The notes beneath the pieces were generated by a model. It was not told where the DNA came from, did no database searches, and was given only the letters and a program-made list of their open reading frames with translations. A stretch of DNA of 64,000 bases, taken from Chloroflexota bacterium. GTDB taxonomy: Bacteria > Chloroflexota > Anaerolineae > Aggregatilineales > Phototrophicaceae. Shown one piece after another: positions 40,272 through 42,542 of the stretch (its first letter is position 1; each line of letters opens with the position of its first letter). Made by a program: the position numbers and the translations under genes. The stretch is taken from NCBI GenBank assembly GCA_016223085.1, contig JACRPS010000011.1, positions 1 through 64,000 of the forward strand, read 5' to 3'.

Positions 40272-42542
<2,271 letters not shown>

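Follow-up and report, generated by a model that had tools for sequence, protein, structure and literature searches.

Palindromic repeats that are read in frame within genes are known from Rickettsia, where elements of the RPE-1 type measure 100–150 nt and such elements are tolerated in surface loops. The SDR repeats of Nostoc, reportedly described by Elhai et al. in 2008, are said to be 21–27 nt in length, dispersed, hairpin-forming and mobile in appearance, with compensatory changes. The GTAG REPs (Di Nocera et al. 2013, PMC3733652) are, in the accessible part of their description, palindromes of 20–40 nt that occur in high copy and mainly outside genes, lie behind genes with unidirectional or convergent neighbours, often supply the TAG stop codon, and are in some cases translated inside genes, which include genes for replication, repair and tRNA synthetases; Chloroflexi are among the genomes included. 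The same part of that source reports that the stems of REP subfamilies can differ by alternative complementary residues, and that two Xanthomonas species carry different REPs at about one recB site. Intragenic REPs are known, and the present analysis bears on the route by which they enter genes. Template switching between the arms of inverted repeats is also a known process that, in the available portions of two reports (PMC8604942, PMC8794818), makes the arms identical and gives rise to multi-base coding changes or compensatory stem changes, in yeast genes and RNA genes rather than in dispersed bacterial repeats.

The window, which is the whole 64,000-nucleotide stretch analysed (contig JACRPS010000011.1, positions 1 to 64,000), includes a complete hypF gene on the minus strand (40272–42542) that predicts a 756 aa protein with acylphosphatase, zinc finger, YrdC and Kae1-like domains, as assigned from Pfam and structure alignment. 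Positions 41633–41660 within this gene form a perfect 28-nt palindrome, GTAGGGACACGATATATCGTGTCCCTAC, with 14 nt in each arm and no spacer (palindromes are listed here without a strand). The subfamily that it represents, identified by its perfect dyad and by pattern searches of the window and the genome, was named A28. The ten codons that read through it (41631–41660, minus strand, phase 0) are GTA GGG ACA CGA TAT ATC GTG TCC CTA CAT and specify residues 295–304, VGTRYIVSLH, the palindrome proper accounting for residues 295–303 and the first base of codon 304. The first-pass annotation had called this a perfect copy of an intergenic repeat, and identical intergenic copies are indeed found at 29822–29849 and 43037–43064. 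It had also drawn a parallel with the Rickettsia elements, which holds in that a dispersed palindromic repeat is read in frame inside genes, here conserved ones, although the sequences are unrelated and the repeats described here are 28–30 nt long. The Nostoc SDR are likewise unrelated in sequence, and intragenic reading is reportedly not their focus.

The hypF frame is open through the palindrome, with conserved HypF sequence on either side. Five HypF-related Pfam families score above the cut-off, and the 756-codon product can be aligned over almost its whole length to solved HypF structures, in agreement with the earlier statement that its length is normal. The YrdC match covers residues 214–391. 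In an AlphaFold2 model (mean pLDDT 87.3 overall and 68 for residues 291–300), the palindrome-encoded stretch sits between YrdC-domain strands 286–291 and 311–315, with no secondary structure at residues 292–302 and a three-residue helical turn at 303–305. The residues are thus modelled as a flexible loop of the YrdC domain, where they had previously been placed. No new protein function is evident for the hypF copy.

Allowing up to 3 mismatches, a pattern search for A28 found 6 copies in the window and none in 100 dinucleotide shuffles. A copy with one mismatch is located at 19480–19507, and copies with three mismatches at 40196–40223, downstream of hypF and missing in the sister genome, and at 50177–50204. 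The window also contains two further members of the family: a 30-nt palindrome at 29753–29782, whose counterpart in the sister is 29 nt long, retains all 13 outer pairs and shows three paired changes, and a 28-nt palindrome, GTAGGGGCACGGCATGCCGTGCCCCTAC, at 29708–29735, which the sister lacks. A decayed relative retaining 9 of 13 pairs lies in the sister at the place corresponding to 29822–29849, and the palindrome at the intergenic site orthologous to 43037–43064 (L017) is, by eye, unrelated in sequence. The relatives in the window, 28–30 nt in length, have GTAGGG ends in common and differ in their cores.

The genome as a whole (6.03 Mb in 37 contigs) contains 211 places within 3 mismatches of A28, the reversed control pattern giving 0. 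The closest relative bearing a name is a MAG of the Aggregatilineales, which suggests membership of the Chloroflexota. Among 16 other genomes of the same genus, six copies are found in the sister (G013), two in each of two genomes, one in a single genome and none in the other 12. A survey of 2.43 Mb, about 40% of the genome, detected 485 related palindromes, which by extrapolation gives about 1,200 family palindromes in the genome; 28-mers account for 259 of the 485, 29-mers for 164, 30-mers for 52 and other lengths for 10. Short queries of phage and plasmid sequence collections gave no match to the palindrome, and a literature search, mainly beyond subscription journals, found no earlier report of A28. 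The base preceding GTAGGG is rarely A (the base following CCCTAC is T in 2–8% of sides), and this is so for 28-, 29- and 30-mers.

Most copies lie just behind genes. According to gene calls made with a simple purpose-written predictor, which assigns ∼87% of the sample to coding sequence, 404 of the 485 palindromes fall between genes, 46 straddle a gene end and 35 are inside predicted genes. A gene 3′-end is found within 30 nt of 252 of the 450 extragenic copies, and in 39 predicted genes the stop codon is the TAG of one of these palindromes. The 448 extragenic copies with a neighbour on both sides are between unidirectional (281), convergent (122) or divergent (45) genes, against a baseline for all gene pairs of 1404, 304 and 300, respectively. 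Copies in such positions may act as 3′-end hairpins. In length, copy number, position and neighbours, in the supply of TAG stops and in the types of gene that carry intragenic copies, the family resembles the GTAG REPs as described in the accessible part of PMC3733652. However, the tag described there is unpaired and present at one end, whereas here GTAG occurs at either end and is part of the perfect dyad, and that part of the source includes neither a phase bias nor a base-by-base comparison of orthologous intragenic copies. A translated intragenic REP-like palindrome is of a known kind; this family is set apart as a variant by GTAG ends that are fully paired, by its phase bias and by symmetric turnover in coding sequence.

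The 35 intragenic copies are distributed over 28 predicted genes, and 29 of them lie 150 nt or more from either end of the gene. That the element can move or be copied into genes, as first proposed, is consistent with these 35 of 485 sampled palindromes. Pfam was run on 21 of the 28 host genes (hypF and 20 others), of which 18 match a family and three have no match. Hosts include metG, glyQS, dnaG, dnaX, Maf, an asparagine synthase, a P-type ATPase, an AMP-binding enzyme and glycosyltransferases, so hypF is not exceptional in its own genome. The copies in glyQS, asparagine synthase, GT9-WecG and HMA-ATPase separate two Pfam domains, and those in dnaG and dnaX come after the final recognised domain. 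Linkers are not the sole sites, because the copies in hypF, metG, Maf and the AMP-binding enzyme are within single domains. Since housekeeping genes carry copies, alignments of the metG, dnaG, dnaX, glyQS and hypF proteins include repeat-derived residues. A 901 aa membrane protein (L279:2496–5201) that is YfhO-like at its end contains five in-frame palindromes.

Two of the three reading phases are open. Phase 0, in which the palindrome begins at the first codon base, gives VGTRYIVSL; phase 1 is also open, and phase 2, in which two bases of a codon precede the palindrome, gives TAG. All 35 intragenic copies divide 26, 8 and 1 between phases 0, 1 and 2, and the 29 deep copies, those at least 150 nt from gene ends, divide 24, 5 and 0. 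The deep 28-mers show a ratio of 21:1 between phases 0 and 1 (two-sided p about 1e-5), a count that treats copies within one gene separately; these 22 copies come from 18 genes, of which 17 show phase 0 alone and one shows phase 1. The bias is not general, because the deep 29-mers are 3:4. Codon usage was considered as a sufficient cause of the 28-mer bias and rejected, as phase 0 is only slightly better than phase 1, the mean log ratios of codon frequencies being −0.63 and −0.75 for A28 and −0.31 and −0.52 for the GGGGCACGG type.

The best overall explanation, to which we assign a probability of about 0.72, is that the hypF sequence is one of a large dispersed family of REP-like palindromes of 28–30 nt with the form GTAGGG...CCCTAC, that copies survive in loops and linkers, that they spread by copying or replacing sequence, and that arms are copied from one another. 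Gene-borne copies would survive only where the phase is open and the protein has slack, as in loops and linkers, and the YrdC loop of HypF would be one such place, the hypF copy having supplied, or substituted for, the greater part of a loop that is variable. Spread by copying or replacing, through template switching, gene conversion or single-strand transposition and subsequent loop trimming, would be more likely than cut-and-paste. The joint change of the two arms in established copies would be best accounted for by repair or replication in which an arm is templated by its partner or by a different member of the family.

Evidence on how copies arrive was sought in the lengths of four host proteins. 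The first-pass annotation had proposed a 28-nt insertion into hypF without a frameshift; the frame is open across the palindrome, but a plain insertion of 28 nt was not seen in any of the four genes compared (hypF, metG, dnaG and Maf). Removal of the palindrome from hypF would leave a loop of 7 residues, and none of 106 relatives (110 loci less the one studied and three near-duplicates) has this clean empty site. The loop is 17 residues here and 11–70 in the relatives, with 71 shorter, 6 equal and 29 longer, and the six that match it in length differ from it in their residues. The sister protein is 86% identical, and its loop is 10 residues longer and encoded by different DNA with no such palindrome. 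That this sister loop derives by decay from a 30-mer belonging to the family is only suggestive, as 4 of 500 shuffles are equally good. With the closest orthologue carrying a different and longer loop, neither insertion nor replacement is provable for hypF from these alignments.

The other three genes differ among themselves. Palindromes occupy one position of metG, a gene with more closely related orthologues than hypF, in this genome and the sister, and 15 other genomes are non-palindromic there; compared with the stretch in this genome, theirs is identical in length in three, two residues longer in ten and five shorter in two. Nine of the ten relatives having a 48-residue stretch (two longer) carry I-G in place of the V-G of the palindrome. 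Replacement is as likely as insertion because the palindrome-bearing metG loop equals that of three non-palindromic relatives in length, and under replacement it is no puzzle that 28 is not a multiple of three. The dnaG linker has 66 residues here, 71 in the sister and 66–68 in the three closest outgroups. The Maf stretch has 43 residues here, 46 in the sister and 30–35 in 13 palindrome-free relatives; compared with the closest two of these, the net gain is about nine residues, as insertion would give. Target-site duplications of 1–10 nt were looked for at 221 copies, and none exceeded the range of 300 shuffles; direct duplications of 1 nt number 51, where the shuffles average 39 and reach 55 at most. 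This lack distinguishes the palindrome from MITEs. Taken together, the hypF, metG, dnaG, Maf and duplication comparisons suggest that addition and replacement both occur, or that addition is followed by trimming.

One alternative, which we regard as a tentative possibility, is that the palindrome is a miniature mobile element. A RAYT or IS200-type Y1 transposase would insert a single-stranded 28-mer without target duplication, small gains or losses would restore the frame, and selection would filter the products. Target duplication is not expected of the IS200-type Y1 class, the net gain in Maf is in the direction required, and two stand-alone Y1_Tnp genes are present in this genome and none in the few-copy sister. 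The GTAG ends are as in the GTAG REPs, going by the accessible part of PMC3733652. On the other side, other members of the genus have Y1_Tnp but no palindrome expansion, and metG and dnaG show no net gain over the three closest outgroups. The existence of the two Y1 transposase genes makes a role of RAYT in moving the palindrome possible; as the mover it is not supported by the flanking repeats, which at both Y1_Tnp genes belong, by eye, mainly to another family, GCCGCCGGA..GCTGAAAGCC... A RAYT flanked by its own REP is a feature of the GTAG REPs. A 70–80 nt element with inverted ends CTATCCATAAACC...GGTTTACGGATAG adjoins both genes (L206 about 6230–6306 and L205 about 8350–8430), and a palindrome of the GGGGCACGG type is seen by eye in its middle. 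This element is possibly a MITE with a nested palindrome.

Comparison with the sister bears on how the palindromes change once in place. The compared spans contain 17 palindromes of this genome and are non-random, L138, L141 and L150 having been picked for a sister palindrome and L225, L245 and L260 for an intragenic palindrome in this genome. At these 17 sites the sister has at least 12 of 13 pairs in 6 cases and a decayed palindrome (9–10 of 13) in 5; its palindrome is unrelated (by eye) at two sites and absent at two, and the remaining two, which include hypF, are unclear. The chance of at least 9 of 13 pairs is about 0.001 per decayed case. Eleven palindromes entered the test for paired changes; those left out were 40196 and 29708 (missing in the sister), 43037 and C17:163577 (sister palindrome unrelated, by eye), C12:226312 (decayed and not alignable) and hypF 41633 (uncertain). 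Sister contigs had appeared to end at palindromes, and this was rejected as contigs C107 and C248 continue past those places.

Complementary double changes in the 11 palindromes number 25, against a permutation mean of 3.4 and a maximum of 12 in 20,000, though paired differences are partly built in when both compared sequences are palindromes; one-sided changes number 19. The three coding palindromes, in metG, Maf and dnaG, have 7 paired changes against a mean of 1.3. In metG an AC/GT pair has become GA/TC on both arms (two paired changes), accompanied by one single change. Such changes resemble those of template-switch homogenisation. Paired changes would also arise if the two genomes had independently received different palindromes; the identical boundaries in the two genomes at metG and C12:226861, though few loci, speak against this. 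The agreement in position and boundaries favours descent accompanied by symmetric change, or conversion from a different copy, over a pair of insertions. A sister pair with orthologous coding palindromes that differ mainly by paired changes makes it testable whether arms are copied at the DNA level or maintained through selection acting on the RNA or the protein.

Paired changes in intergenic copies would also be expected if the palindromes were functional RNA hairpins, terminators or 3′ stabilisers under selection for pairing, the hypF copy being a misplaced member or a regulatory hairpin in the mRNA. The position of copies behind genes and the convergent bias agree with this, and in the predicted fold of a 91-nt segment of hypF mRNA the palindrome forms a stem of 12 bp (z = −5.2, calculated on the segment as a whole). 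We consider it doubtful as a full account, as the paired changes extend to coding copies in metG and Maf, the Rfam covariance models gave no match at gathering score in window positions 39000–44000, and a copy number that ranges from 211 to 0 within one genus is unlike that of an essential function.

Returning to spread by copying or replacing, a stronger form can be proposed, though we think it rather unlikely. Here, the palindromes would be self-symmetrising: intragenic spread would overwrite short stretches and not add bases, and one arm, or another copy, would serve as template for the other so that the dyad is kept while its letters turn over. The hypF loop would have been rewritten in place, with no need for 28 nt to be a multiple of three, and the phase found in 21 of 22 deep 28-mers would reflect homology-guided overwriting of Val/Ile-Gly codons, as metG suggests. 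If this were true, neither a transposase nor a benefit to the protein would be needed.

An origin in intergenic sequence that later became coding by read-through or gene fusion was considered for linkers such as those of glyQS and GT9-WecG, where the element separates the alpha part from the beta part and GT9 from WecG, respectively, all of which are separate genes elsewhere; as a general route it is improbable, the copies in hypF, metG, Maf and the AMP-binding enzyme being within single domains. Misassembly of the hypF palindrome between repeat copies is scarcely credible, since the only point in its favour is that repeats can mislead assemblers, nothing specific having been found, and an assembly error is unlikely because the conserved reading frame is uninterrupted and HypF sequence continues on both sides, similar copies are present in many other genes, and the sister, an independent assembly, has an in-frame palindrome at the same metG site.

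The HypF loop is also occupied by repeats in other bacteria. Inverted repeats with a score of at least 8 are present in the loops of six distant HypF (L050, L051, L052, L056, L101 and L105). When three of these six loops were searched against their own genomes, a Bipolaricaulota MAG gave at least 65 match rows in 1.7 Mb (40 of 81 candidates scored, the best 40 with E <1e-12), an Acetothermia MAG at least 63 in 1.2 Mb (40 of 58 candidates scored) and a MAG labelled Akkermansia 44 in 3.9 Mb, these rows including the place of the query and both strands of one place. By eye, the three repeats are unrelated to one another and to A28. On these matches, the same loop holds the host genome's own dispersed repeat in three other genomes, and HypF loops carrying such repeats in three phyla, as named in the record titles, would constitute a natural record of tolerance to foreign peptides. 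Four further loops (L051, L073, L088 and L100) match other places in their own few-kb locus, in some cases, by eye, because of seven-base tandem repeats. The YrdC loop was considered as a unique hotspot of HypF and rejected; it is permissive but not unique, because other stretches, near residues 194, 400–409, 475–487, 532–538 and 640–664, are also insertion-prone. Translated seven-base tandem repeats, such as AATTGGA, are seen by eye in the HypF loops of L070, L088, L059 and L073.
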